A stretch of 38,294 nt of DNA, taken from Chromera velia (Eukaryota > Sar > Chromeraceae). A program made the position numbers and the translations under genes. Of the stretch, positions 5,412 through 32,788 are shown piece after piece. The notes beneath the pieces are model-generated. The model made no database searches, was not told the DNA's origin, and was given only the letters and a program-made list of their open reading frames with translations. Every line of letters begins with the position of its first letter. Position 1 is the first letter of the stretch. The stretch is from contig JAHBMJ010003326.1 of NCBI GenBank assembly GCA_018398765.1, positions 1 to 38,294 on the forward strand, written 5' to 3'.

Positions 5412-8400
5412 CTACCGTGTTGTCATTGCAGGCCCGGCTCGTCTCTTGCAGGGGCCTCTAAGGAGAGATGACCTCAGCGTTGCAAAGCGGTCGGCTGCTG
5501 TCTGCAGAACAGGTGCGCAGGCTGCGTGAAATGCCCTTCCTTCTCGACTCACGATCAGTAGGTCTCTGTTCATTTGATGCTCTTGCAAAGATGCCTCTGC
5601 TTCTCTCGAGCTTTCGTCCGCAAGTGTTGCTGCGGATGGCGGGGGGGCAGCACTCAGCAAACCCGAGCAGGCGGCACACATGATTTGGTGCGTTTTGTCG
5701 ACAGTGCACAAGGCTCTCGACTTTCGCTTCTTCAAACCTTCAAACTTCCCGAAACTCTCCCCTCTGGCAATCTTTTCTGCCCCCTGAAAGAGGGATCTCT
5801 CACTCTCAAAATCACGAAGAATCGAGAGTACTGAATTCTCAAAAACAGACCACTCACACTGACCGTATTTGCTCAGCAGCCCCTGAACAGCTAAGGGCAG
5901 CGACTGATGCAAAAAGGGTCCCATGCCTTCTTCAAGGACCACCCCGACAAGAGACCCTAGCAAACGATTCAGACACGTCACCTTTCCTCCCTCTCCACCC
6001 GTTTTTTGAAGTGAGCCAGAGAGAAGAGAGGGGGGCGCCACTAGATCAGAAAGGAAGCCGAACCACAAATCTTCCATCTGGCTCTGCGGAAAGACTCGAC
6101 GGTTTCGACTGCACAGAGCTGCCGCCTGTCTGATCACCCTCAGACAAAGGCAGTACTCCTCCACGCCCTCTAGGTCAGAAGGAGACGGCACATACGTGCG
6201 CGAAGGCAAGGAGGAAGACGGCGCAGACGGGAGCGAAGAATCTGCGTTCTCACTCACTGAGGGGTGAAGCACCGCTTGCTCCCTCTGCATACGCCCAAGC
6301 AGGCGCGACAAAGGAGAATCTCCTTCTCCATCATGACTACCGACCACGCAGGAGAAAACTGCTTCCCTCAGTCTCCCCAACCCATCCACAAACGCCCCCT
6401 TCAACAATTCTGCAGCCCCATCCAAGTCCCGACTCCTTTCTAGAAGACATACGGCAGGTGCTAGAGCACCTCTCTCTATACAGCTGCGGAGACAGGCATC
6501 TACGGGGAGTCTCTCAAAGTGATCGGTCAAGAAGCGGACACATTGCTCCTCTGCTTTTTGTGCCTGCTCCTGCCCTTTTCCCTCCTCCTCCTCCCCCCCT
6601 GCACCGAAACCCTCGCTGAGAAGCAAAACGTATAACTGGCAACAATGCTCGTAAAACCCTCCCGATTCGGGTCCCGTTCCCAGAAATTCCATCGCACGTT
6701 TCTGTGCTTTCGGGTCAGGAACGTCTATCAGACACGAAAGGAAACGCATCTGCAGTCGGGGGTGAGCATCAAGAGCAGCAACAACCTCTTGGGCACCTGA
6801 CTGTGCCACCCCTGACACCGTCTCTTCTCCCAGCTCAGTGCTGCTTTTGGCATGTGACGTCAGGGGTGATTCAAATATACTGCAGATCACATCACACGCT
6901 CGCTGACAACCTGTGCGTACCAACAAAGGCACTACTGAAAGAACTGCCCTAGAAACACCCCGGGCGTCTTCCCAGCACGGCAACTCCACATTCCCCCCCT
7001 GAGCACCCCTGTCAGATCCCCCAACACTCCACCCAACCCAAGGGAGGCTAGATCGGAGCCTTTTCCCTTCCTCCATCAACGCCTTTTTTTTTCTCTGCAA
7101 CACCGCTTCGTTCTTTACGGGGACTTCTTGGTGCAACAGGCTCGCTGCACTGACAACCCATGTTAGGATGTCAAAGAGGGGGGCATGCAGGGAGGGCACA
7201 GCAGCTAGAGTCTCAAGAAACTCTACCCACTCACCCCGCATCCAGAACAGCCAAGCTGCAGGGCCCGGAAGGCCCTTTTCACGACAGGAAAAGGCAAGAC
7301 TCTTACCCGTATCACCCCTGACAGTCAAACGGCTTGAATCTGACGAATTCAAACCGTCAGATGCCAGTTGTGCCTCCAGTCTGATCAAGTGCAACAGCAA
7401 CGTCTCTGCCTCCTTCGCCTCTCGGAGGCCCGTGCCTTCCCGCACTACAAGACCGTCTCTTCTCTCTGTGTCAAGTTTTTCCTTCTCTTCAACAAGGGCA
7501 GTCAAAACTCCTAGAAGGGACACAGAGACAGGGAGAGACAACCCGATGACAACACGAACTCGAGCAATCAAAAGGTGAAACTCATGCTCGCAAGCGGAGG
7601 CAGTGCGGCGACACCAGTCTACTCCCCCCCCTCTCCTCCTCGTAACACAGCCATCAGACATGGAACCGGAGCCAGAATACAGGTCCACACCGTTTGTGCC
7701 CTCCCCTAGATTCCCCTGCCTCTTCTCGTACTCATCTTCCAGCCCCACAGCCACCTCTCGGAGGGCGTGACAGCAACGGAGCACTGCCTCTTCCAGATGC
7801 CTTAGCACCTGCCGAAGAGAGATCGGCCGCTCTTGGCCCAGACTGCCAAGCACGAGTGCGTCATCTTCGTCCTCCTCCCCCCCTTCCTTCTCGTTCCCAT
7901 CAAGAGACGGAGGTCCTGACAAAATTGCCCTCGAATGATCACACAGGAAAGAAGACGATAAAACACGAAAAAGAAGAAAGGGAGACAGCTGAACAAGAGC
8001 CAAAAACACTGGGGGGGCTGAACCGATGGCCACCGCTGCTCCTCTCATGCTCTGTGAATCTTCTAACCCCATCCCACCCACCCCTTTTGCCCTACTGCTC
8101 CCGCTGCTGTGTGTGGAAGGCAGGCGGCAGAGCATGTTCAAGACAGAGGGCAGAACAGAAGAGGGTGTGACGACAGGGCACGGGGAAGCCCGGCCAAGAG
8201 GGAACTGCTGACCCTCGCAGCACATCTGCAGAAAGAAGAAAAGGCGGCGAACCAGAACGGACTTGCATCCTGGAGCTGGCTCTTGCACCTCCTCCCCCCC
8301 GCCCCCCAGCACTGAGCCTGGTGAGCCGTTCTTTCTGTACGGCACAAGAAGGAGTAAACGACCGGAAGGGGGGGAGGGAGCAGATGCGGCGACGAGCATG

Positions 8401-9961
8401 TCAGCCAGGGGACCTTCGAAGTCTCTCAGAATGGTTGTGTGCAGATAAGCAAGTGCGGAGTGCAGCCTGCTTTGCCTGCACTGTCGAGTTGCCTTGTCTA
8501 AATCAACCCCTGTCGGATCACACCTGGCGATCAGACGCTGCAGGCGCAGAGACAGGAGAGCCCTTGCGGCACGAAGGACAACAGTTTGGTTGTCCTCCTG
8601 CCCGGGGCCCCGCGCACTCAGACCCCCAGGCCCTAACAACCAGGTGGCACTTGCCAAAAGGCGCACCGTGTCAGGTGCGGTCTTGCTGAGTTGCGTGGCT
8701 TCGGAGACGGCATCGCGCCAAAGGGGCGATGTCGCCTCGGGTGCTGATGGCCCATTGACACTGTCCGCCTGCCTGCCCTCAGAGGGCACTAAAGCAGGAG
8801 ACAGAGACATACATTTCTCAGGTTGCACTGCTCGTGCAAATTCATCAAGCACCTCTGAGAGAGCTTCTGAATCGACTGACTCTCCCGGTTTGACTGTGCG
8901 CATTTGTTTTTCAAGCAAACAAAGGAGAATACCCAAACCCTCCCTCTCCCCCCGACCCTGAATTCGAACCGAACGAGCGGAATCTAAAGAACCACGAAAA
9001 ACCAATTCTTGCAACCCTGCAGCAATACCCATCTCCACAACCACTGCACAAATCGTCTTCCACTTCTCGGCTTCAACTTCTTTTTCTTCCATTGCCCCGG
9101 TCAACATTCCCCGACATACCATTTCAGCCATGCGCCCCACGGCAACCCGCCGCTGTGTCATTTGGACAGAAACATCCAAGAGAGGAGGTACAAGACCCTT
9201 CAAAAGGGCCAGACAAATCGCGAGGCACCAATGCCATGGATCAGGTGGGGGTTTTCCTTTTCCTTCTCCCCCAGTCACCCCTGAAGTCCCCCCCAAGAAT
9301 TCCGACAAAACGTCCCACCATCCACGCACATGGAGGGTGGATGCGCCGTGCAACCCCACCAGCACTAGGCGGGGCGGTGCCGAGTCTGTCGGATCACCCC
9401 CGTCAGCTTCCACTTTGGGTTGTTTCTGCCGTCTCACTGGCAACTGTGCCAGGGGTGCAGTTGCAACTGTGGAGTGATAAGAGAGCGGTGGGGGGGTCAC
9501 CCCTGCGTCTGCCCCCGGGGGCGGTGGCAGGTTTCGGAAAAGCATCGAGGAAAGCTCTACCTCTTGTTTCCACACTAACCCAATCTGCCATAAAGAACTG
9601 TCCTGTTCTACTCCGTCTAACTCCTCCCCCCTTCTGCTTCTGTGTTGGGCCTTCGTGTCTGTCAATTTGGGTTCACACGGGTGAACTTGGAGGACAGAGA
9701 GGACTCCGGTCGACGAGAGAACGCAGAAGAGACTGCCTCCCAGACTGTGCAGGGCCTGCAAGTAGACACAACACAACACAGGTACAAAGAGAGACACAAG
9801 AGGGCTTCTAAATGACGGGAGAGAAAAAACAAGAAAGCAACTAAAAATGCCAAAACACCTCTGCGACGGGACACAAACGCTCTGGTGTTCGACCCAATCT
9901 CCCTAACCTCTTTGTTTGTTTTCTTTCTTTCTTTCCTTCCTTCCTTCGTTCGTTCTTTCTT

Positions 9962-9998
<37 letters not shown>

Positions 9999-12545
9999 CT
10001 CCCTTTCTTTCTTTTTCTCTTTCTTTTTCTCTTTCTTCCTTCCTCACTTACTCCCTTTGCTCCTTCCTCTTTTGTTCCTCTCACTTTCCCCCCACTATGC
10101 GTAACTGTGGCATGGGCATGGTGAACCCAGTGGTCGCCTGCGAGAGGACCCGCTTTTCCTTCCCTGCCTTTCAATACTTTGAGAGTCAGTCATTCCGGCA
10201 GCTGTGCAACGCCAATGTCATTCTGCATGTGTCTGCAGGTCATTACGTCTTCAAAGCCATTTCCGTTCTCTCAATCCCAAAGTGACATAATGGCTAGATA
10301 TCTGACTGCCTGGGTGTTGGTACTCACCAGCACAGCATCCCCCAGGCTTTCCCTCCTGAGGACTTGACCCTCGAGTCCCACCCTCACTGAGAGGAGACCT
10401 GACTCCCCTCCTGCTCCTCCTCCTGCATTTGCGAGCTGCTGTCTGCCTTCAGGGTCGCGAGCAGAGGAAGTAGATGATCCAGATTTTCCCCTTCCACGCG
10501 GTTTTACAGCTAACAGCACAAGAGTGTGACCGTTCGCAACCTGCAAACGATCGAGAGGTGCCGATCGATTGATCGAGGAAGGAAACACACTGTGGATGAG
10601 CGACAGACACCGAGCAAAGGAAGGAAAAAAGGGGGGGGGATTCCAGTCATTCGATATCACTTGCTCGACGTTCTTCGGTACAGGTGCGCAGGTTTTATCC
10701 CCTATTGACTTGCTTGAGAGACGGAAAGAAGCGGGGGAAAGGGACAACAGGAGACCTCAGAAGAGAAAACGAGAAGACACGAGAGAATCATTGATGGCGA
10801 TCCGGCACAATCTTGCAAAAGCCGTTCAAAGAGGAATGAGAGAAAGCTGCTTGTGATGAAAGAGGAGAGACACTCAAAGGAAGACTCACCGACCAACTCA
10901 CCGCAAGAAGAGGTGCCATTGAGAGAGCACTCTGCTGGCCAGGGAAAGGTCTCAGCCACGCACAGCAAGAGGAGAACTTCCCCTTGTTTGCTTCCGATTC
11001 CCCTCTCCCGCCTTCTCTGTCAAAGATCCGATCAGTGTCAGGCAGAGGGGATCCCCCTGCCGTCTGTTGACCTGAGGGAAAGGACGACACTGAAGAGAAA
11101 TCTAGACGGTAGAGAGGGGCGACTGTAGGGTGAAGGGAAAGGACGAGGACCGTCGAGGAACACGCAAGGGCAACAACCGATGCGTGGTCGACAGATTCTT
11201 CCTCTGCTGCTGCTGTCTGATGAGAACTCGCAGATGAGGACGAAGAGATTGGTTGGTGCTGCTGCACAGTGTGGGAGCCTCCACTCCCCCCCGAGGGAGT
11301 TGGAGAGGAGCTGGAACTGGAGGGAGACACGCGGGGAAGTGGTACAATGCTGACCACTGCTTCGAGCGTGCGGGTTTTCCCTTTTTTGTCTTGTTGCGAT
11401 GGGTCACCACCCCCCTCCCCAATGAGCAGCTGGCGCTCACAGGCAGTCGCCATGAAGCGTTTCGAAAAAGTCAGCATCTGCACATTGCCAGCGGCATCGG
11501 CAGATAAGGCAGTCTGTCTCCCTCCCCTGAGAAAGGACAGAGCACTGACAAGATACGTGGTGGAGGGGCGGGGGGAGGATGCGGGTGTGAGGGAAGTTGA
11601 CGCTGCGGTTTGCCCTCCCGTTCCCGGCCCGCCTGTCTGTAGGGGCGGGCCGTGTATCTCCAGAGATCCCCAAAGACACCGGGCAGTCCACTGACCCTCC
11701 TCTCCCTTTTCTGCATCTCCTGTTTGAACCTCCCAGAGCAACAAAGCCCCTCCCCGCATTCCCACCAACAGACCGAAAAGAGGCACACCGGCACTGCCTG
11801 TCTGTACTCCTCCTAGAGACGAAGCCACGTTCGTCGCCATACTTGCGGCAACAGAAGCCATCAAGCCCATACCCCTGCTAGCCACGTTCGAAAACCCAGC
11901 CACTGCACCGCTGCCCTTTCCTGAAGCCTGCCCTGCTTGTGAATTATTCAAGCTCTGCGCCCCTGTCTGCCCGCCCCCCCCACCGCCCTCTCTGCTCAAG
12001 GCCAACGCAGTCACGGGGCCGACGGAGGACGAGGGCACCGCTGCCAGAGCAGTGGAATCACTTGGAACGTCAATCGCTAGCCGCAGACGCATACGGGAAT
12101 CGTAAAGCATGCACGCGCCTCTCGATGTCCCGACCACAGTGACCCTCCCGTCAAGAGAGCAAGTGACCACAGAGGGCAAACCCTTTGAACCCCTTCCAGG
12201 CCTTCCCCCCCCTTCCGCATGGATGCCGCTTAAAGGGAGACTGCGGACCTTTACAATAGAGCTACTCCCAAGACATGGGCCATCTGCACGGCTGAGGAGC
12301 CTTCTTTCTCTACTCTCCTCCCTTTCTTCCTGAGTTGCCAATCCCTCGCCCCTCAGGAGGGCACTCAGAGGAGACGGCGTCTCTTCAATTGTCGGCAGCG
12401 GCTCCCTCCCAATTGCCAACTCATGTGCCTCAAAAGAGGCACACCAGCCAAAGGGAGACGAGGCAAACGAGTCCGCATCACTCTTACCCAGGCCGTAAAG
12501 CCTGTCTGCTACCGAGCACTCAGTCTCCTTTTCTACTCCGGACAT
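5412..12545 (-). CDS. VPS8: VPS8-like CORVET subunit (beta-propeller, alpha-solenoid, degenerate RING)
   Basis: Three phase-0 exons on the minus strand, 12545-10890, 10540-10328 and 9755-5412, join into about 2070 residues with a TAG stop. Donors are GTGAGT (10889 and 10327) and acceptors are TTGCAG and CTTGCAG. Residues about 110-620 are propeller-like: SLDGRVTVVGTSRGACMLYDS, ALSADAAGNVQMLTFSKRF, then VLVLSLHPTVAPLYRLDF and LLAVSWS. The order and wording match VPS8 (in the human protein, a conserved CSDSGGSVFELTF-type block precedes a KILVI-LKPSLKVW-type block). Exon 3 encodes a long helical solenoid, and near the C-terminus CAACSGLL and HAACAPVL look like a reduced RING (C-x2-C, H-x2-C). 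VPS8 proteins tether early endosomes through Rab5 in the CORVET complex. The protein is longer than animal VPS8 because of Gly/Ser/Glu-rich insertions. The ATG at 12545 is the first in the open frame; an upstream exon is possible. Confidence 0.75.
9915..10045. repeat. (CTTT)n/(CT)n microsatellite in VPS8 intron
   Basis: CTTT, CTTC and CT repeats fill part of the intron between VPS8 exons 2 and 3 (9756-10327). On the minus strand they read as Lys/Arg/Glu-rich frames that are not genes. Confidence 0.85.
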
Positions 12546-13107
12546 TGGAAAGCCGCACAGTGTTCTTTGAAGCACTAAAATTCTAAGGAGGCACCCCGAA
12601 ACTGCAAAGTGTCAAGGCCCATTCCTTTCGACGAAGTGAGCCACTCACGTATTCTCTGGACCCATCTTTCCCTTTTCTTCAGCTGCTAACTGACAGATGA
12701 GAAGTGGAGATATATATATCAGATCGTGAAAGGATCATGCACCCCAAAAATCTGGCCTTCGGATTCAGAATTTTGGATCGGGGCCGCGCCCCCAGAAAAA
12801 AACCCTCAAAAAGGCCACAGCAATCACAGCCGTCTCCTTCATTGCTTTCTTGAATCTTGTTCCACTTCTTGTCAGGTTCTTGATGCAATGATTGGAATGT
12901 GGACCAAAATTATGCTCGAGAGCAAGTGCGCGGTCAGCAGTGACAAGCAATTCGGATCTCTGAAAACGTCTACGAACCTTGCAGTACGCGCATTGGCCGA
13001 CTTGTTGCTACCATTCCAAGGTCGTATTCCCTGAGGAGTGTTGTTCTGGAGACCTTCGCTCGGCTTTTGATATTTTGCTCTGGGATTTTCCTTCACGCCT
13101 GCTCTCC
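12546..13107. promoter_or_regulatory. Shared intergenic region between divergent VPS8 and pantothenate kinase genes
   Basis: About 560 bases separate the two divergent start codons, so this interval probably holds both promoters and 5' UTRs. An ATATATATAT tract lies at about 12711-12720. A donor-like ATAC|GTGAGT (minus, near 12652) and acceptor-like TTTGCAG (minus, near 12612) suggest a short 5' UTR intron for VPS8, because the joined frame stops before the VPS8 ATG. No RNA gene or other coding region is seen. Confidence 0.45.
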
Positions 13108-15760
13108 ATGTCGGAAAGTGAGGCAGATAAGAAGGAGCCTCCTGGAAAAGCTCTGTGTGCTCTGGACATCGGAGGGACCCTCGCGAAGTTGGTCTGTCTG
13201 GTGAAGGAGGAAGAAGTCAGCGAGTGCGAGGGAGACGAGAGCACACCGAGGGAGGGGGGGCCCTTGACAACAGAATGCAATGGAGGTAAGGAGGACGAAC
13301 GGCTCCTGCCGAAGCAGCCGTTCAAACCTCTTTTATGTCTTCAATTGCCGGATGTTTCACTATGGTCTGATGGCTGAGTGTGTGGCTCGTTCAATTTAGC
13401 TCGGTTCACCAGTGAAGTACTGAATGCCGCGTTCTCCAGCCAAGAGCCTTTTAGGGAAGAAGCAAGTGAGCAGCAACAGTCTGAATTCTCCCAATGTTCC
13501 GCGCTTCTGAAAGAGGAGAGAAAACACGTGGGAGAGATAACACAAACATAAGAAAAATGCAGTCGGTCGAATGAAACAAGATATGGGCACCCTACAAAAA
13601 CAGCAGATACATAGATAGAAAGTGTCAGACAGTCAAGTCGGGCAGGGGGGTGGGGAGAAAGACGCAAAGGAACGGGCAGCCACGAAATGAATTTCTGCTG
13701 CACCTTTCCCGCCTTTTTTTTTCATGCACGTGTGCTTCCGTGAAAGAGTGCTCTTCATTTTTTCCTCAACCCGTGCGTGCAGAAACTTTTCGGTTAAAGT
13801 TTCGACACTTCTTTACCGCCCGGGTGGAGGAGCTTATCGACTTCCTCAAAAGTAAGTGAAGCGACCAGTCGACCTGACTTTCCTTCACACACGAATGCTG
13901 GACATTGGAGGGAATCCCCCGAAGGAAGGCTTATAGAGGAATGCCCTTCCCGACAGAGAGGAAAGGATGCCGGGGCAGAGCTGGTGGAGTTTCTTCAACT
14001 GACTCTGTGAAAGATTGAAAAGAAGACAAGACAATTTGAATGAAGCAAAGAAATGGCGAGAGCTTCTTGAAATGAACAAACTGACGAGGCAAATGAGGGG
14101 TTCGGATCTGTGCGGTCAGACAGTGAGTTTCTCAAACGAGAACATAACGGCCACCTTGCATGTGATTATTTTCTTCCCGATTGACCTGTGTGATTTCTCA
14201 TTTCACCACGATCATGAATGGCTCTGTACTCCATTTGATGGTTGGTCAGGCCGTGAGCTCGTCAAACCCGGACAGCAACTTCCAGTCACAGGGGGAGGGG
14301 CTTACAAGTTTGAGGAGCTTTTTGCTGAAAGGTTCAAGTGCACTGTGGCGAAAAGAGATGAAATGTCCTCTGTCATTTCTGGTCTTGACTTCCTCCTCGG
14401 ACAGAAGGGGGTCGCATACAAGTACGATCCGAATAAAGAGCAGAAAGTAAATGTCGAGCTGGTCAGTCAGTCAGTCAGTGAGTGAGTGAGTGAGTGACTG
14501 ACTGACTGAGTCCGTCGGCTAGCTCGCTGGTCAATCTTCTTTTCAGTCAGTCCTCCATCCTCCTTTTGTCCGAGCTGCCTGACAGTGCTGATTTGTTCGT
14601 TCGAATCAGATCCCGGCAGACTCTCTCTGCTTGCTTTGGCTTCTGGATCGGGGGTCGTGTGCCGTTGGTTGGCGCTTCTTTTTCTGCCTGTTTCGTTTTC
14701 TTTTGTTCATCACAGTCACATTCGTTCTCATTCTCTCTTGTCTGCCTGCTCATCCATGCCCTTCTCCCTTCTCTCCCCGCAGAGCAGAGACATTTACCCC
14801 TTCCTCGTGGTCAACGTTGGCTCTGGGGTATCTGTTCTTCGGGTGGGTGGGGGGGTGGGCAGTGGGGGCATGCGAGCTGCAGGTAGTCCTGCATGCAGTA
14901 AGCTGGCTGGCTGTTTGGGGGTCTTTATACCGACCACACATGTATGAATACCAGAGCAAACTTAGTGAGGGCTTTGCCTGCTTCCATAGAGTGCGTGGGA
15001 AGGGAGGGTTACCTGCAGGGATCGTGGAAGAAGGAGTGGATCCCTTCACTTTTTGCTTCTCTTCTTGTGTTTCTTGAGGAGAGGTGCAAAATTTTGGCCA
15101 ACAAGCGGGAGGAAGGGATTAGGGGGACGCACAAATGCGAATTCTTCTTTGGGTTCTCCTATTATCTCTGTCTTCATCAAAGTCTCCATGCGCCAAGCAA
15201 GCAAGAGGGACTCTGTCTGACCACTCGATGCACAAACTCTCACTGACCTTTTTTCGTTTTGTGCGCAGGTGAACGGGCCGAAGGACTTCGTCCGAGTGAC
15301 CGGGACCTGTATCGGGGGAGGCACAGTCCTCGGGCTCTCGCACATTCTCTTCGGGGCGGAGTCGTTTGATGAAGTCAGGCAGGCAGGGGGTCGTAAAACA
15401 GGGGGATGGGAGTACATGGGCTGGTTTACTTGGGACATTCTGGTTTGGATGCAAGTGTAAATCTTCATTGTCCTCTTTCTCTTTCTCTCTCTGTCTGCCT
15501 GTCTGCCTGTCTGCCTGTGGGTCGAAGAGAAAAAAGAAAAGAAGATGTCACACATTCAATATTTTCTTTTCTTTTTCTCGTAAATGTTGTTCGCTCCTCA
15601 CTGAGTTTGCGTGCAAGGCTTATGTACTTCTTGTTCCCCACAATCTTTCGTGGTACTTCTGCGTTGTGGCGATCAGGTCGTCCGCCTGTCAGAAAAGGGC
15701 ACGACAGAGCTCGACTTGACGGTTCGGGATCTTTTGGGGGATTCCGGTTAGTTTCATTGA

Positions 15761-17796: not shown

Positions 17797-19537
17797 AAGA
17801 AAGAAAGAAAGAGGCCCGCTGACCCGTCTTTGTGGACCATAATCGCTTTTGTCGTTCACAAGTCTCTTTATTCTACTTTTCGTTTTTCCTCGGCAGGCCG
17901 GTAAGGTCCAGGGGGGGCAGGGGGGACATCATGTATGGTTGCGCCTTACTTTTCCTCTCTTTACCCTACTGAAACACCCGAAGAGAGGCAACAAAAAAAG
18001 GTGCCCACATCTTCTCTCTGAATACGCAGCGCCGGGGCCCCCGGACTCCGGAGGAGGCGCGTGGACGGGCCATGGGGGAGGCCGGAGGGGGGGGGTCTTC
18101 CCTCTCTGGGCGGGTGGGTGCGAGGGGGTTTGCAGTGGCGCAGGTTGGGGGAGGAGACCGATCCTCGGTTGCAGGGGGANNNNNNNNNNNNNNNNNNNNN
18201 NNNNNNNNNNNNNNNNNNNNNNNNNNNNNNNNNNNNNNNNNNNNNNNNNNNNNNNNNNNNNNNNNNNNNNNNNNNNNNNNNNNNNNNNNNNNNNGGGGGG
18301 GGGGATTTTTCGGGTCGAGCATGTCACCGAATACAGGCCCCTCTCTTCCCTTTCCCTCTGCATTGCATAGAGATAGAAGAGGGGGGAGAGGAGGACGAAG
18401 GCGAGGGGGGGGCAAGAGACGGCCTCCCCTCCCTCACGGGGGGTCGGTACAGGAGCATGACCTTCTTCGAAGGTCAACAGCAGTACAGACAGGAGGCCCT
18501 TCTCTCGTGCCTCATTCTTCTCTCCCTGTGGGAACTGAGGAGGGTCAGTTTGATAAGAGGGACCGGGCGTTGACGAGCAGCTTTGCGGCACGTGATTTGG
18601 ACTCGGATGGCATTGTCCACTCTTTGGAGAGAAGTAATTTGTCTGAGGGGGGGNNNGGGGGGGGGGGATGAGGAGAGGGGTGATGATGAGGAAGACGATT
18701 ATTGGGACGAGGATGAGGACATTTTGATTGAGGAGGGCGAAGAAGAGGCAGGAGAGGAGGAGGGGCAAGGACAGAGAAGCCAGGTTGAATCTCAGAACGT
18801 GTCTCAAGGAGATCAGTCAGGGTCTCGAGGGTCTGCCTCCCCCCCTCAGCCTCTTCAGATAGAAAGTGAAAAGGGAGGGGGGGACTCAGGAAAAACTAGA
18901 GAGAGTCAGGCAGGTGAGAGTACCGGCAGTGCTCCAAGAAAAGAGCCTAGGTTCCAAACTAGCCCAGCATCGTTGGTCTCACCGCGGGGGGCGGGACAGA
19001 CACCAGCCGGAAAGCCATCGCGAAAACCGATTGAAGTCAGTACTGCAGCACGAAGAAAGCGGAGACTTTACTCGGAAAGCCGCCGAAAATTTTTTTTTCC
19101 CACCATGTATTCAAAGTCTGAGAAGCCTTTCCTCTTTTGCTTTCTCTTCTGCTACCCCTGTCTCTCTTCTCCACCGAGCGAGAATGAGGAGTGCGAGAGA
19201 GAGACACAGTGCCTGCTCCTGTGTGCCTCTGTGTGTGCGCGCGCGTGTGTGTGTTTGTGTGTGCTTGCGTGCGTGCGTGCGACTGGGTGTGGTGAGCATT
19301 TGCGCAAGCTATTTGTCTTTCGGAATTGTCTGGGATGTTCCTGGCCTTCGTGGGTCCATCGGTTTTTTTTCTTCCCTGCCTCTCTGCGGGCACGCCTGAC
19401 ATGGTGGTGCGATCTCCCTTCCAACCCTGTCCGTGTTGCATGTTTGTCTTTGTTTGTTCATGCAGGTTCTGTTTGTGAAACACGATGGATATCTGGGGGC
19501 TCTCGGGGCTCTAGTGCTCTCAGAAGATGCGTCGTAA
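13108..19537 (+). CDS. PANK: Pantothenate kinase, eukaryotic (type II) family
   Basis: First enzyme of coenzyme A synthesis: ATP-dependent phosphorylation of pantothenate. Exons read in phase: 13108-13285, 13783-13851, 14250-14446, 14783-14842, 15269-15373, 15677-15746, 16249-16288, 17124-17216, 17584-17719, an unresolved insert, then 19466-19537 ending in TAA. Family motifs appear in order: ALDIGGTLAKLV (phosphate-binding loop), VTGGGAYKFEELF, KRDEM (its Glu fits the catalytic base of animal PanK), YPFLVVNVGSGVSVL, GTCIGGGTVLGLSHIL, SFDE, LPANKTAS, EDLARSLIHMVSFNLGYIAYL, and C-terminal HDGYLGALGAL. The order is uninterrupted, so the protein looks active. Between exon 9 and the last exon lies a region with an assembly gap and acidic low-complexity frames; how much of it is coding cannot be told. 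The ATG is the first in the frame just upstream of the conserved ALDIGGT. Confidence 0.9.
14462..14512. repeat. Self-complementary (TCAG)n...(TGAC)n microsatellite
   Basis: Four TCAG units, several TGAG units and three TGAC units follow one another just after the donor of a pantothenate kinase intron. The outer arms are reverse complements of about 12 bases and could fold in pre-mRNA. A similar TCAG tract lies at 16821-16850 in a later intron. Confidence 0.7.
15762..15795. repeat. (CT)n microsatellite in intron
   Basis: About sixteen CT units lie in the pantothenate kinase intron following the exon at 15677-15746. Confidence 0.9.
17390..17420. repeat. (GT)n microsatellite in intron
   Basis: A pure GT tract in the pantothenate kinase intron 17217-17583. 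Confidence 0.9.
17764..17812. repeat. (GA)n(GAAA)n microsatellite in intron
   Basis: GA units followed by GAAA units, just after the end of the pantothenate kinase exon at 17719. Confidence 0.9.
18180..18294. other. Assembly gap (115 N), with a second 3-N gap at 18654-18656
   Basis: Both gaps are flanked by long G runs, so they probably mark sequence that failed to assemble because of G-rich tracts. They sit in the insert between the last two recognisable pantothenate kinase exons. Any frame read across them is unreliable. Confidence 0.98.
18370..19060 (+). other. Acidic low-complexity insert within the pantothenate kinase gene
   Basis: After the gap, plus-strand frames are rich in Glu/Asp/Gly (about 18660-18770: DEERGDDEEDDYWDEDED and similar), then Ser/Gln/Pro-rich up to about 19030. 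They are open and biased like a disordered protein insert. Exon limits and phase cannot be fixed because of the N gaps, so it may be a coding insert between the RGMRFYQEHYHGL and HDGYLGALGAL segments, or intron. Confidence 0.4.
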
Positions 19538-23637: not shown

Positions 23638-26600
23638 TCAACTATCCATCTTTCGCCAATAAATCGCGTCAACAAAATCCCACACAGGGCCCTTTTTCTT
23701 TGAACCCTCATTTATCCTCGTCTTCCCCTTGCCCCCCAAAGTCACAGCGGTGAGCCACTGGATGGTTATCTGCTCATCCCAGATTCGGTCAACGCACACT
23801 CTGAAGACATCGCCCCCGTCGCTCTCTCTGGTTGGCGTTCCATCAATGGGAGAGTGGTAGTAGAACTCGATCACGTCGCCCCTCTCCAGGGTGGGGGGCG
23901 CACCTCCTGGGCCTGCGGGAAAATATGCAAAGCCCTCCCGCGGCTGTGGTGCACCGGGGGAGTTCTCAGTCAAGCCCTCTCGTGGTTTCAGTACAAGGGA
24001 GGGGGTTGAGAGGGAGGCTGAGGGTTCCCCTGGGGGAGGGGCCACACGACGGCGCTTTGAAGGCCCGTCACTTCCATTTCCCTTCCCCCCTGTCGCTTCT
24101 TTCTGTTTCTCTTCCTTTCTTGCGGCTTTGGTCTGATTTCTCTCCTCAGACTGTGAAGGGGGAGAGAAGGCCGATGCCCGTTGTTCTGCAAACGCGTCTT
24201 CTTCTATCCCCCCCTCGCCTATGGGTGGAACGAAGAGGGGCGATCCTTCAATCCGGAAAACAGTAGGGTCAGCCGCACCCTTCTCAACGTCATCTCCCTG
24301 TCGAGAGCCCCTTGGAGAAGAGAGGAAGTCTCTACGGGCCTCCTCCTGAAGTCACACGCAGACAGGCAGCCAGGCAGGCAGGTTTACAGAAAAGGTTCAG
24401 TCTAGCTGCACTCGACTCGCTGTCTGTGTCTTGCTGGAAAATACAGAAGTCTGATGGAAAATGCAGAGGTCTGGTGGAAAATGCAGAGGTCTTATGGGAA
24501 ATGCAGAGGTCTGCTGGAGAATGCAGAGGTCTGATGGAAAATGCAGAGGTCTGGTGGAAAATGTAGAGGTCTGGTGGAAAATGCAGAGGTCTGATGGGAA
24601 ATGTAGAGGTCTGGTGGAAAATGCAGAGGGCTGATGGGAAATGCAGAGGTCTGATGGGAAATGCAGAGGTCTGGTGGAAAATGCAGAGGTCTGGTGGAAA
24701 ATGCAGAGGTCTGACGGAAAATGCAGAAGTCTGGCGGAAAATGCAGAGGTCTGGTGGAAAATTCAGAGGTCTGGTGGAGAACATGGTGGAAAATGTAGAG
24801 GTCTGGTGGAAAATGCAGAGGTCTAGTGGAAAGTGCAGAGGTCTGGTGGAAAATGCAGAGGTCTGACGGAAAATGCAGAGGTCTGGCGGAAAATGCACAC
24901 GTCTGACGGAAAATGCAGAGGTCTGGTGGAGAATGCAGAGGTCTGATGGAAAATGCAGAGGTCTGGTGGAAAATGCAGAGGTCTGGTGGAAAATGCAGAG
25001 GTCTGATGGAAAATGCAGAGGTCTGACGGAAAATGCAGAGGTCTGGTGGAAAATGCAGAGGTCTGATGGAAAATGCAGAGGTCTGGTGGAGAATGCAGAG
25101 GTCTGGTGGAAAATGCAGAGGTCTGGTGGAAAATGCAGAGGTCTGGTGGAAAATGCAGAGGTCTGGTGGAAAATGCAGAGGTCTGGTGGAAAATGCACAC
25201 GTCTGGTGGAAAATGCAGAGGTCTGGTGGATAATGCAGAGGTCTGATGGAAAATGCAGAGGTCTGATGGAAATGCAGAGGTCCGACGGAAAATGCAGAGG
25301 TCTGGTGGAAAATGCAGAGGTCTGGTGCAAAATGCAGAGGTCTGGTGGAAAATGCAGAGGTCTGACGGAAAATGCAGAGGTCTGATGGAAAATGCAGAGG
25401 TCTGGTGGAAACTGCAGAGATCTGGTGGAAAATGCAGAGGTCTGACGGAAATGCAGAGGTCTGGTGGAGAGTGCACAGCCGGATATCCAACTTTGCCGAA
25501 GTTTAGATAAAGATCAGACCGATACAAGAAGACAGACTCAAAGAGGAGGGGGAAAGAGCCGGTGGGGTAAAAGCTGCAAAGAAGCAATGAGCCCTTGAAG
25601 ACCCTCTGCCTGCCTGGGAGGTGATAAGTACGCGCAGTGGAACGACTGAGAAAGGGAAGAAAAAGAAAACACACACACGACAACAACAGAAGAGAGCGAC
25701 AGAGGAGAAAAGGTTTGCGACTCACCGATGTCTCATTGACGACAGCTTCCATCGACCCTCCAACGTCCCCTCTTCGTTCCGCCCCTGTGTCCTCGTGCCC
25801 CCTTCCTCCCTTATTGGAGACCTCAGTCTCCACAGTGTGACAGTCTTCTGCCTCTATCTGCGCTTGCCCCCTCTCAGCTTCTTCAGCAGCCCCCCTCCTC
25901 GAACTGCCAGACCTCTCATAGGCGTCGCCTGTCAAGGTTAAGGACATTCCAGAGGCGTTGTCAGGACCGGGCCCTGTCTGCCCTCGCATCGTTCCCGTCA
26001 GAGACGAAGACGAAGGCGGAGCACCAGCTTTTGTACTGCCCCCCCCTCGCTTGCGGGATCCTGGTGGACCCTGTGATCCCCTTCCCTTCTCTTTGCCTTC
26101 CCTTTCCTCTTCTCGGGATGGGTCCTCCTCCAAGGGTGCACTGAGGGGATGTGCAGGCTTTGCACTTCTAGACAGGGGAAATAGTGGAGGGAATCTATCG
26201 GAGGCAAAGTTCTCCCTGTCCCTCCAGACGTCTCCCTTTCTGCAGTAGGTCAGGTAGAGGACCGGCCGAACAATGCCGCTCCGGTTCCCGAGACCCCTGT
26301 GCAACACACGGTAGTCGAACACCAAAGCGTCTCCTGAGGAGAGGGAAAACAAACGCACAGCAGCCATTTGGTTGGACCCTTTCGGACGACACAAACAAAA
26401 TGCGCACCGAACGCTCAGTGGACAAATCCCATTCAAACATTCTTGAGACCTACGCCGCATGTCCCCACCTCCTCTTCAAACAGGTGCATTGGCTTTACCC
26501 AGACAAACTCACAGTGCCTCTCTCTCTTCGGTGAAGACAAAGAAAGAGTTCAGGGGTGAGATGAAGTGAAATAAGATGAAGTAAAATATGTGGCAGGGCC

Positions 26601-29600
26601 ATGAAACGCCTTTCAGGTTAATTGCGCACACCCTCTCAGACACGCGCACGCACACGCTCACGCAGACACACAAAGAGAAAGAACAAAAACAGGTGACAGA
26701 CCTGCTTTGAGGAGTGGGGCCTCCGGACGCCCTCTCTGTCTGTTGGCGTTCTCGTCCCCCCCTCCCCAATAGTGCCACAAGTAGTGGGACCCTGCCGGCC
26801 CGAGGAAGGAAGAGGAGGCAGTAAGGAAAAATGAGCAGACAGTCAGACAGAAGACGAGTGGATGGATGTGTACATGTTAAGGACACGTGAAATGAGAGTC
26901 TTTCAGGAATTGTTCAGTCCGTTCGGTCGAAATCAAATGGCTACTCTGCACGGTGAAGTCCCACAAGAAGTCACAGAGAGGAGCGCAGAAGAAAGTTCGC
27001 TGACAGGATTTTGTGGATCGGTTCTGCTGGATAGAGAAGTGGAAAACCTTCCAAACAGTCTTTGATGCGCGAGGGAGACACAAGAATTTGTTGCGTTACG
27101 TTCTTTGCCAAAATATCGAGATTTATCTGGCTCTTTCTCACCGGGATAGAACTCGGTTGGCCCGACGTCCCTTTTGACGTTGACGAGTGGAAGGAAGACG
27201 TTGAGGGCATAGGGGGCCTCATGACGAGGTCCCCCCTTCCTCCTGTCCAGTTCCTCTGTTGCCTTCCCTTTCCCCTTCTCTTTCTCACTCGCTGCCGCCA
27301 CTTCCCCCGCCACCACCGCGTCATGGGGCCCGTCCGTGTGGAGGCCCTGGATGGCACACCCCGGCCGCGTCAGCATGCAGCCCAGGTGACAGAGCTCCAA
27401 TTCGTCCGTGTCCTGGGGGGGGGAGGAAGAAGAGGAAGAGGACGAGGGGGCAAAATCTCCGCCTGCATTGACACGAACAGGGGCGCATGCTGATTGTCGA
27501 AATCTTTTTTTTGAATCCCAACAGCAAGGGATCGAGGCAGAACCCGCATTTTTATTTTTTTGCTTTTACTTCAGCGAAAGACAGGAGATGCTTCAGGAGG
27601 AGAAAGTTGCAGAGAAGAAAAGTGACGTCCAGTTGAGAGAGTCAGCCTGAAGAGAACTGGAAAACATAAACCAGAACAGATGAATTCTTCTGACAACGGC
27701 AAAAATAGAGAGTGTAAACAAAAAAAGCAGGTGGACTGCACTTTTCATCTTTCTTTCTCTTCATCTATTGGACCCCTGAACGCCCGATGTTTCCACTCAC
27801 CCATGGCAGCACTAATTCATATGAGTGTATGAGCTGACCACTCCCCCTGCGTCGGAGAGCCTCCCTGCAGACCGACAGCCACTTTGCGGTCTTTGCATGC
27901 AGCCCCTTGTGTTTCTCTGGTTTCTGCATCAGAGCAGGGACAGAGACGTCAAACCTCAATTCCCCCCGGGTCTTGATCAGGTCAAACCCCCCTCCGTTCT
28001 CTAGTTGATTCCTCAGGGAGTCGTTGTTGTGGATGCGGGTCATGTACCTGCATTACGCCACACACACACACACACACGCACGTGCCCACTCACGCTCACA
28101 AGAATTTAGGAAAGGATCTGAACCAACCAAACAAAGCAATTCTACAATCACGCACAGGGGGTGGTGAGGAATCCAATGGGAGGATCCGCGGAGTCCTCGG
28201 AGTCTGTAGTCAAATGGAAAGGTCGGCAGGCGTGGGACCTACACACGTCGGTGTGCCCTGTCAGGTCTCTCGCGGCTTCATTTCCCTCCCTGAAACTTTC
28301 TGTCTTCTTTTCTTCCTCTTTCTCCTCTTTTCTCTTCTCTTCTCTTCTTTCTTCTGTCCTTCGTGCCGTCTCGTGCTGTTGAGATCCTCCATTTTCTTCC
28401 TCTTTGCCTACACCTGCCTCGTTTCCTATCACAGTTTTTTCTAGCCTTCTCCCCATCACATTCTTGCTTTCTTCTTTGACTCGCTTGCAGGCAGGCACAG
28501 ACTGCGGGGACGAGACGGGAGATGGCGAGTTCCGCAGAAAAGAAAGACGAGGTTGAGGAAGGAGGCAAAAGAAAGGAAAGGCTGACGAGTTGAAAGCCCC
28601 CACGACCTCATCGTAGAGGCCCTCCACGTCCTCTTGGGAGAGGCACCCCTTCAACGTCACGAACCCCCGATCCCAGAGTTCCAGACACTCACCAGACAGC
28701 CTCTCCTTCCCCCCCGCCCTCTCCACGTCCTCCCTGTGAACCTCCTCCACAGAAAGCGTCCCCAGGGCCCTCCGCACTTTCCTGCTCACACCCGCAATGT
28801 CCACACCCACAAAGTTGGACCGCACGTCGACCCCGTGATTGATCGCGAGACTCACATACCTGCAGGCACGCAGGCGGGCAGTGAGTTATGTTTTTGGACC
28901 TTGGGTCAACAAATGAAAAAGCGGTCAAGGCAATAAACCATTTTGCCCTCTCTCAAAGAACGAAATAGGAAATCGCAATGACTGCAGAGAAGTGTGGACT
29001 GAAAGAATGCATGCGAGTGCAAGGAATGGACTCGGGCGAAAATCGACCATATGTAGTACTGGGACTGCGTGCCCTTCTGAACCAAAAGGGAACAGAAAAA
29101 AAGGACAGATTTTTTTCATCGAAGTGCACAGATAATCCGAGGGCTTGCAAGTCACACATGAGCGCTTTGCCATATGTCGTTTCAGCACTTTTCTGTGCCC
29201 AGGATCGTATAATAAAAACGAGGATTCTCAACAGAAAATTGTGTGTCTGTGAGCCCAAAACAGCACTTGCCTGTGTGCCCAAAAAAGCTGGGACCCAAGA
29301 TGGGCCAGAGCGTGCGTGGGAGCAAACGCGCCATCCCCTAAGCAGGTATCCCGAAGTCTCTCGATGGTTCCCTGCCACTGCTGCAGGACCTGGCTGGAGC
29401 TGTTCTTTTCCTGGGCCGTCCCCTCCTGCTCCTTCGACGAGCCCGATGAATCAGAAATTCCAACCGAGCTGTAGGCTTTCTGTTTCACTTCGTACTCGTT
29501 TCCCTCACACCAGGAGCAGCCCCAATCTTTGCCCTTTGGAATTCCAGGCAAACCAAGACACCGAACGTGGTAAGATCGAGCACAGAAATCGCAACAGAGC

Positions 29601-29752
29601 AATTGTCCCCCTGTCCCGCAGTGAAGACAGACAACGTCGTTGTCCTCTCCCTCTTCTTCTCCGCCCTCTTCAGCTTCTCCGCCTTCCTCCAATTCCTCCT
29701 CCTGCTCCCCGACAAAGTCGACACCCGCCTCAGAGTCAAGGTGGGTCGTCAT
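23638..29752 (-). CDS. PHD finger-PhyH dioxygenase fusion with C-terminal beta-rich domain
   Basis: Seven exons join in phase on the minus strand: 29752-29271, 28859-28587, 28047-27801, 27412-27142, 26791-26702, 26333-25726, 24345-23638, giving about 892 residues and a TGA stop. Residues about 41-86 form a complete C4HC3 PHD finger (CLHC, CDFC, HVRC, CSWC) after an acidic N-terminus. Residues about 220-490 form a phytanoyl-CoA dioxygenase (PhyH) fold: GFVTLKGCLSQEDVEGL, iron ligands H359-x-D361 in GLHTDGP, TEFYPGSH, AGDALVFDYRVLHRGLGN with H466, R477 for 2-oxoglutarate, then VLYLTYCR. A disordered region, a basic KRRR stretch near residue 755 and a final domain starting GDVIEFYYHSPIDG follow. 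PHD fingers usually read histone H3 tails and PhyH enzymes hydroxylate with Fe(II) and 2-oxoglutarate, so a nuclear, chromatin-directed hydroxylase is inferred. The substrate is unknown. Confidence 0.85.
24433..25483. repeat. 20-bp tandem repeat array, about 52 copies, in the last intron of the PHD-PhyH gene
   Basis: The unit is ATGCAGAGGTCTGGTGGAAA with variants. The plus strand is purine-rich. Copies differ mainly at the two bases after CTG (GT, AT, AC, GC). One unit near 25265 is 19 bases long, and one near 24775 has a 12-base duplication. The unit has no stop in any minus frame, so three overlapping minus-strand frames of 332-545 codons arise. They are artefacts: the array lies between a GTGAGT donor (25725) and a TTCAG acceptor (24346), and the flanking exons join in phase without it. 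Confidence 0.95.
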
Positions 29753-30128
29753 TTTTTTTTTCTTCTTCCCTCACCTGCTCGAGTCAGTCTGCAGAACGCC
29801 GCACAAATATTCTGTTGGGTTAGACGGATGGATACTCACACAAGAAGTCCTCCTTGCAAGGGAGGGAGAATCGGTCGAAGAGCAAAATCAGTTGCTGACT
29901 CTCAGACACAAGTTGTGTCGCACAGCTGCTGGAAAGATTTTTCTGCCCTCTTTTCCTTGGAAGCGGTTCGCAGCTTTTTCCTTAAACAAGAGGCGTGGCG
30001 GGGAAGGAGACGGCTAGAGACGGCAAGGCTTGGGGAACTTAGTTAGTTTTGGGAAGGCTTGAAGGAGGCAGCATTGGAACGTTTCAGTTCTTCCAGCCAC
30101 CAAAGTAAGCTATGCTGACACCATATGC
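29753..30128. other. Intergenic, upstream of the PHD-PhyH gene and downstream of U6
   Basis: An A-rich tract immediately precedes the PHD-PhyH ATG on the minus strand, which argues against a splice acceptor there and for a 5' UTR. Nothing else is recognised between this and the U6 terminator. Confidence 0.5.
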
Positions 30129-30180
30129 AAAAAAATTGGTACACTTCTCGATTTGTGCGTGTCATCCTTGCGCAGGGGCC

Positions 30181-30212
<32 letters not shown>

Positions 30213-30237
30213 ACAGATGGTACCGGCGAACCGGACC
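30129..30237 (-). ncRNA. U6: U6 spliceosomal snRNA
   Basis: Read on the minus strand, 30237 starts a 5' hairpin (GGU-CCGG-UUCG-CCGG with one bulged U, then ACC). It is followed by the invariant core: AAAAUUGGAACGAUACAGAG, the ACAGAGA box that pairs with the 5' splice site, then AAGAUUAGCAUGGCCCC with the AGC triad, the intramolecular stem-loop UGCGCAAGGAUGACACGCA, and a run of seven T that serves as RNA polymerase III terminator and Lsm-binding tail. About 108 nucleotides, the usual length. No disrupting change is visible, so it looks functional. No clear TATA box is seen at the expected distance upstream. The spliceosomal role follows from the family. Confidence 0.96.
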
Positions 30238-30744: not shown

Positions 30745-32788
30745 ATGGCTGTTCCAGTCACAGAGTCTTCTGGAGGAGCTTTCTCTGCAGCTGCGAAAGC
30801 TCTGTCAGTGTTGTTTGTCGCTCAAAACAACACGCAAGCTTACTCGTCCCTTTCTCCACTCCGTGGCTCTGCAACCAAGAAAAGAAGCCAAATAGAGGTC
30901 CCTCTCTTGCACTTGGATCGGGTGAGTCTCCTATCATTGGCTTACTTGCAATGCATTCGAGTTGTCCGTCGATCGACGTGACCTGCAAACGTTGACTGTT
31001 GTGCGTGTGTTGTGGTGGGTGTTGCAGGGCTGGGGCGGTGACTGTGTGCCTGTCTACTGGGAGACCGAGTGGCCATTGTCGGACGAAACATCTCTTGGCA
31101 GGTGCAGGGCGCACTTCGACTTTCTATTCCCCTACAACCAGACCACGATCCCTGAAGATATTGTGAAGCAAGTCCAAGAGAGCAACAAAACAGGATATAC
31201 CTGGACTTCATTCTCAGCTCTCTTCCCCGCGAATGGTTCCTCTCTCTCAGACAGTGGTAGCCTTCTTCTCTCAGAAGCAGCAGAGCCAGAGTGGCAAGAA
31301 ATCAATACCAAGCTTGACGTGTTGATTGAGTTGGGCCTCAAGGAAGGGGAGGTTCAGCAGGTGAAGAGCCGCATGGAGCAGCTGAGAGATCAATTGAAGG
31401 ATCCCTCCAAACGGCTGGCAGCAGGAAATGCAGTTCTGGGAGGACTGACCGGAACAATCGATGCCATCAAGTCAGGCAAGCCTGCAAACATCATCAGCTC
31501 CGTACTCGGAACAGCGGCCGCTGTCGCGGGGGTTGCCTCTGCCGTCCCTGGTGCTGCTGCCGTTTCTCTTGCTCTTGGGTTCTTCAGCGCCATCGCGGGT
31601 CTCTTTGGGGGCGGTGCAGGATCATCAGGCCCGCCTCCGCTAACACGAGAGGATATTGCTGATGTGGTACAGGAGGAGTTGTGGAAGAACAGTCTGAAGG
31701 AGAGGGGGAATGATATGATTGCATACGCAAAGCAGTTGCTCGGCTTTGCTCAGGTTGCCACGAACTATGCAATGGAGGCAAAGGAGAAGGGTGTAGTGTC
31801 TAAGGAGACGTGTAGGACATTCCGTGACCTTGCGTACGACTCTTGGGGTCCCACAGTGCAACACTCTGCCCCGATGCTGACAGGATTCTACACAGATCTG
31901 GAGAGCCGCCTGAAGGAGCTCTCGAACCTGAAAGAGTCAGAGCGAATGTGCAAGAACACATGCGACTTGATGATTTCTCCTTACCATAAGTGGAAAGAAG
32001 CCAAGGGCCACAAAGTGGACTTCTCCTATTCCAAATCTTGGGGGTACTGGCCTGATAGCGACTCGATGTGTGTGGAGGTTGGAAAAAGCATCTCACGCAA
32101 CAAGGAATGCAAGAAGAGGATTCAGAGACGCGACCAGTGCCACAAAGACTTCGAGACCTCAGCATCGAATTGGAACCCCCTGAGAGTCCAGCTGCAGGGG
32201 GCACTTGCACTCTCTCAGGCTGAGCTGCTGATGTACATCGCGATTCGAGATTTCTTTGCGAGTGCGAAGGTGAAGAGCTGGGGTGTGTTTGAGAAGTCCT
32301 GCGCGGAGGAGCAGAAGCTGAATGTGGAGATGTTCCTCCAGTCCCTGGGGAGTCAGATGGATGACCACATCTGGAAGCTGATGACTTGGTCTCCTGAGAG
32401 AGCCGGGAAGTGGGCGCAGGGAGGAAAGGAGTACGACTGTCAAGCCGAAAACGACGACTGGCTCGAGACAGTAGGGGGGGAAAACGGTGGATACTCCAAT
32501 GTGTATGAAGGAGAGTCACGGTACAAGAAGCTGAAGAACGCCCCATGCGTGACATCAGAGTATTGCACAAACTGGTATGCACCTACCTTGCCTCCGAAGT
32601 GGTGTCTGTCGGGACCGAAGGGCAGCTGGTTTGGAGGCACCAACGATATGTTCAAGTGCGATGAAGGGAATGAGACGCCCGGATATCGGCTGGACTGGGA
32701 GTGGACTGGGGGGGTCTGGAAGTATTCAGAAATTGAGGGGCCTGAGATGCCCACGGGATTCAGCATGTTTGACACAATGCTCTTCTGA
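30745..32788 (+). CDS. Uncharacterised 645-residue protein with pore-former-like hydrophobic helical segment
   Basis: Two exons, 30745-30921 and 31028-32788, join in phase 0 (donor GTGAGT, acceptor GTTGCAG) with a TGA stop. No signal peptide is evident. Residues about 147-190 are charged and coiled-coil-like (INTKLDVLIELGLKEGEVQQ). Residues 213-255 are a long Ala/Gly/Val-rich hydrophobic stretch ending ALGFFSAIAGLFGGG, then a helical segment (REDIADVVQEELWKNSLKER). A buried hydrophobic helical segment between amphipathic helices is typical of helical pore-forming domains such as the N-terminal domain of Cry-type proteins; the resemblance is faint. The C-terminal half has many Cys (CKNTC, ECKKR, QCHKDF) and Trp, with no named domain. 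Function is unknown; membrane insertion is only an inference. Confidence 0.75.

Follow-up and report, generated by a model that had tools for sequence, protein, structure and literature searches.

The window that we analyzed, a stretch of 38,294 nucleotides from Chromera velia, carries on its minus strand a gene that very probably encodes a fusion of a PHD finger to an oxygenase domain of the PhyH family, judging from the joins between its exons and from what they encode. The anatomy of the predicted protein is most naturally read as that of a chromatin-directed 2-oxoglutarate/Fe(II) oxygenase, a reading to which we would give an even chance. The gene runs from position 29752 to position 23638, and its seven exons (Table 1) join in phase, as had been claimed, into one frame of 2,679 nucleotides. 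This length is divisible by three and encodes 892 residues and a stop codon, without an internal stop. The order of the protein is an acidic amino terminus, a C4HC3 PHD finger, the PhyH domain, a KRRR stretch and a C-terminal segment.

Table 1. Exons of the PHD-PhyH gene and the two introns of note, in window positions
Feature	Position	Strand	Content
Exon 1	29271..29752	-	Start codon, acidic N-terminus, PHD finger residues 42-82 (~29507-29629)
Intron 1	28860..29270	-	GC-AG, phase 2; connects the PHD exon with the PhyH exons
Exon 2	28587..28859	-	Linker and N-terminal part of the PhyH domain
Exon 3	27801..28047	-	PhyH domain, variable region
Exon 4	27142..27412	-	H359-x-D361 iron ligands, charged low-complexity insert, YALNVFLPL core strand
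Exon 5	26702..26791	-	SH of the PGSH turn and next loop, PhyH core; within the Pfam PhyH match
Exon 6	25726..26333	-	Distal H466, 2-oxoglutarate R477, then low-complexity linker
Intron 6	24346..25725	-	Carries a 20-bp minisatellite
Exon 7	23638..24345	-	Linker with KRRR, C-terminal segment, stop codon

The start codon of exon 1 is preceded by an in-frame stop at 29773. Introns 2 to 6 are of the GT-AG type, and intron 1 is the sole GC-AG intron. The exons are richer in G+C (0.55-0.63) than the introns (0.46-0.51), and the gene contains no N bases, the N runs of the window (18180-18294 and 18654-18656) lying outside it. Exon 3 has no clear match of its own to the profile of bacterial PhyH relatives described below; its coding frame is open, and the remaining two frames hold 3 and 7 stops. 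Most of intron 6 is taken up by the minisatellite, in which the 20-bp unit is repeated about 52 times (24435-25468). The repeat has few stops, and long open reading frames consequently cross it on both strands; these should not be called genes. Retention of intron 6 would lead, in the frame of exon 6, to a stop at about 24825.

The connection of the PHD finger with the PhyH domain depends on intron 1, and the GC donor of this intron, which belongs to the rarer kind of splice donor, had gone unmentioned in the original prediction. The locus could also be read as two adjacent genes, in which a one-exon PHD protein would end at 29230 and a PhyH gene would begin with a first exon that has been overlooked. 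Exon 1 does have a start codon of its own and is open until the stop at 29230, and the join does require a GC-AG intron. However, the donor (CAG/GCAAGT) has the full consensus, scoring 9 of 9 when C is accepted in place of T at +2. Among the GT and GC sites between 29500 and the stop at 29230 it ranks best and has the required phase, whereas the second-best site, with a score of 7, does not have that phase. The acceptor, which requires phase 2, has the most pyrimidines (10/15) of the 15 AG sites that would keep exon 2 open. Exon 2 also has no start of its own: read backward, its frame meets a stop at 28888 before any ATG. A script search of intron 1 for other phase-2 first exons gave a single one, which would code for three residues. 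We consider two separate genes improbable, and treat the seven exons as one gene in what follows.

The catalytic domain was assigned from profile matches. The Pfam search that had been proposed as a check matched PhyH (PF05721) to residues 400-478 of the whole protein at 40.9 bits (E 3.7e-10), above the cut-off of 22 bits, and the excised domain scored 44.9 bits; the match covers only positions 123-212 of the 213 positions of the profile, which is to say its second half. The residues said to be kept by the domain are all in place. The H-x-D motif is H359-x-D361, the distal histidine is H466 and the arginine for 2-oxoglutarate is R477, and each of the four is identical in all 17 aligned rows (the query and 16 bacterial relatives). 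A profile built from these 16 relatives, out of 21 open reading frames listed, gave 86.0 bits for the spliced protein. Five were left out of the profile: L022, which scored 12.9 bits and could be one gene with L025, and four weak matches from the genome itself (L003, L004, L005 and L008). With the same profile, the best three of the 322 six-frame open reading frames of the window (at least 60 residues each) were those that contain exons 6, 4 and 2, at 28.8, 26.3 and 8.4 bits; the best 12 matches included none of 200 shuffled copies. The score of the spliced protein exceeds the sum of these three, in support of the joins within exons 2-6. The evidence for PhyH character is weaker in exons 2-3 than in exons 4-6, the N-terminal match in the spliced protein reaching 2.8 bits.

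The bacterial relatives are remote, with 28-32% identity over the domain and 36-40% over a shortened core. The scans for relatives covered bacteria, archaea, viruses, phages and plasmids. A scan of bacterial and archaeal genomes with a query of 294 residues returned no relative, and a second one with 88 residues returned one bacterial PhyH protein. No relative came from the viral scan or the phage search. In the plasmid search 18 records had a PhyH match, with identities of about 32-35%, and a bacterial survey of 398 genomes of one phylum gave matches in 10. The protein had two matches in NCBIfam, both far below their cut-offs, and none in PHROGs.

The PHD finger in exon 1 is complete with respect to its zinc ligands. 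As had been claimed, all eight residues of a C4HC3 finger were found (C42, C45, C54, C57, H62, C65, C79 and C82), with a spacing that we judged against the alignments of the PDB matches; C53 and H44 are taken as non-ligands. The Pfam search, proposed for this domain too, had a divided outcome. At the level of the exon, PHD (PF00628) scored 28.3 bits, above its cut-off of 24, but in the whole protein it scored 22.1 bits (E 1.5e-4), below it. The PHD-1st_NSD family matched the whole protein at E 1.3e-5, also below its own cut-off. The best PDB sequence matches of the finger were NSD2, CHD4, ZMYND8 (protein kinase C-binding protein 1), NSD3, AIRE and PHF21A. In AIRE and BHC80 the aspartate that reads H3 sits two residues before the first cysteine. 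This position is V40 in the present finger, which lacks the aspartate, and D39, one step further out, aligns with an aspartate of ZMYND8. In readers of trimethyl-lysine a tryptophan sits two residues before the histidine, a position occupied by S60 here, and the tryptophan of the aromatic cage is lacking as well. The aspartate is described as the means by which AIRE and BHC80 read unmodified H3K4, and the tryptophan as needed by readers of H3K4me3 (PMC3214078, partial text); BHC80/PHF21A, AIRE and CHD4 are given as readers of unmodified H3K4 (PMC3471955, partial text). From its residues, the finger possibly prefers unmodified H3. For a chromatin-directed oxygenase, S60 counts in favor, whereas V40 and the low whole-protein score for PHD count against it. 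Two other PHD exons in the genome (L016 and L017) are 31-32% identical to this finger.

Conservation at these sites also bears on whether the gene is alive. Low-complexity inserts occur within the PhyH domain (exon 4) and beyond it, and a minisatellite of 52 copies has settled in intron 6, as might be expected of a decayed or inactive gene. Against decay, the 892 codons run without a stop or frameshift, the four catalytic residues and the eight zinc ligands of the PHD finger are kept, and exons 2-5 have a third-position G+C of 0.68-0.79, but exons 1, 6 and 7 reach just 0.57-0.61. We regard decay as very improbable.

What the PhyH domain acts on is the point on which the readings of an intact fusion part. 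At the head of the PDB sequences matched by the domain stood kanamycin B dioxygenase (KanJ), DhiD and verruculogen synthase (FtmOx1). KanJ and FtmOx1 are members of the PhyH family, and these closest solved relatives are, by their names, small-molecule oxygenases, which counts against a role on chromatin. They favor a reading in which the fusion is real and the substrate of the PhyH domain is a small molecule or a free nucleoside, the PHD finger serving only for protein interaction or for retention in the nucleus. PHYHD1 fits the same reading, being described as an enzyme of nucleus and cytoplasm that demethylates free 2'-O-methyl nucleosides and not RNA (PMC12709175, partial text). The earlier statement that members of the PhyH family also work on modified bases was not borne out in the literature consulted, since PHYHD1, the nearest published case, removes the ribose methyl of free nucleosides. 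However, PHYHD1 is absent from the 21 PDB sequences that the domain matched at E values up to 10, and a free-nucleoside substrate is thus not specifically suggested. The best PDB matches of the PHD finger, on the other hand, are chromatin proteins, which speaks for a role on chromatin and against an enzyme of small molecules. We hold the small-molecule reading to be a serious possibility, at clearly less than an even chance, and continue with the chromatin-directed oxygenase.

The remainder of the protein adds a feature that could be relevant to its location. The KRRR stretch, as had been claimed, is present, at residues 754-757, and from reading by eye it is a possible nuclear signal. For the last 93 residues no Pfam family was found, and their PDB matches had E values of 0.83 or worse. 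The genome gave no convincing further copy of the C-terminal segment, the best other match (E 0.93) having three stops inside it. Models of the segment had mean pLDDT values of 42.8 and 47.6, too low for a fold to be named, and a fold search with them gave nothing at E 0.001 or better. We considered a beta-barrel reader domain for this segment and do not claim it.

We then consider the rest of the genome (178 Mb in 4,040 contigs). With the full protein as query, no second copy of the gene was found in the 178 Mb; nine matches among the best candidates were the seven exons of the gene itself and two further PHD exons. A survey for proteins with both domains had been proposed, and within this genome it gave no further case. 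At exon level there were 11 PHD and 19 PhyH matches, and no contig with a PhyH match had a PHD match as well. Domains that are split between exons escape such a search, and the split PhyH exons of the present gene were themselves not among the 19 matches, so a second split fusion could have been missed. JmjC had 10 matches among those listed, which indicates that JmjC oxygenases are present in this genome too; none of the 10 is on this contig or on the contigs with PHD matches. In the literature searched, including the available text of PMC3475032 and PMC3765361, we found no description of a PHD-PhyH pairing, and InterPro may still hold one.

Other features of the window and of the assembly were recorded. 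A U6 snRNA gene (30130-30237, minus strand, 108.9 bits) lies on the same strand as the PHD-PhyH gene, about 380 bases upstream of its start codon. A VPS8-like gene (5412-12611, minus strand) has Pfam matches to the Vps8 central TPR region and the Vps8 beta-propeller in two open reading frames. A Pfam match to Fumble (pantothenate kinase) at 14003-14485 on the plus strand probably represents a single exon from a larger gene, and an open frame of 620 residues (30926-32788, plus strand) has no Pfam family at E 0.01. In the assembly, alveolin-type (IMCp) matches numbered 11, with a profile that also matched Caulobacter vibrioides among 14 controls, and light-harvesting (Chloroa_b-bind) matches numbered 58, with a profile that matched the control Synechococcus elongatus too. 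The IMCp matches are suggestive of an alveolate, and together with the light-harvesting matches, the introns and the size of the genome they make a photosynthetic alveolate likely. The plastid family Photo_RC (psbA) was not found in the assembly.

Taken as a chromatin-directed oxygenase, the protein would work as follows. One gene would give a nuclear 2-oxoglutarate/Fe(II) oxygenase of 892 residues, whose entry into the nucleus the KRRR stretch may assist. The PHD finger would dock on the N-terminal tail of H3, with unmodified lysine 4 a likelier target than the trimethylated form. Docking would concentrate the PhyH domain on chromatin, where it could hydroxylate or oxidatively demethylate a nearby substrate, be it a histone, another protein or a nucleic-acid component. 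Of the original prediction, the fusion is upheld by the in-phase exons, the intact catalytic residues and the zinc ligands kept by the PHD finger. The further proposal that a PHD-PhyH pairing directs hydroxylation to chromatin is plausible from the anatomy of the protein. More tentatively, and with the chances leaning against it, a protist lineage may have joined a PHD reader to a PhyH enzyme and so obtained a chromatin oxygenase outside the JmjC, TET/JBP and AlkB families, perhaps with a new modification as its product. If the protein does act at chromatin, the list of chromatin-modifying oxygenase families would grow, and the protein would offer a direct test of whether a reader domain can redirect a family known chiefly for small molecules. 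As a candidate it is well delimited, with one gene, defined exons and four residues that can be mutated.

Three groups of known proteins invite comparison. With the PhyH family (PHYH, PHYHD1, EctD, PtlH, KanJ and FtmOx1) the protein shares the Pfam match and the facial triad with its arginine. With PHD readers of the CHD4, AIRE, PHF21A and ZMYND8 type it shares the C4HC3 ligands, these proteins being among the top PDB matches of the finger, but here the partner domain is an oxygenase. KDM7/PHF8, PHF2 and KDM5 likewise unite a PHD finger with a 2-oxoglutarate/Fe(II) oxygenase in the same protein; of these, PHF8 and PHF2 are given as JmjC proteins (PMC3765361, partial text), and PHD1 of KDM5B is described as reading unmodified H3K4 (PMC4225485, partial text). 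The catalytic domain of KDM7/PHF8, PHF2 and KDM5 is JmjC, whereas here it is PhyH. A Pfam scan of the protein found no JmjC domain, which places it outside the PHD-JmjC family in spite of the similar way of working. The design would operate as the PHD-JmjC demethylases do, with another catalytic family, and we rate the protein as a reader-plus-oxygenase of known design in which what differs is the replacement of JmjC by PhyH.
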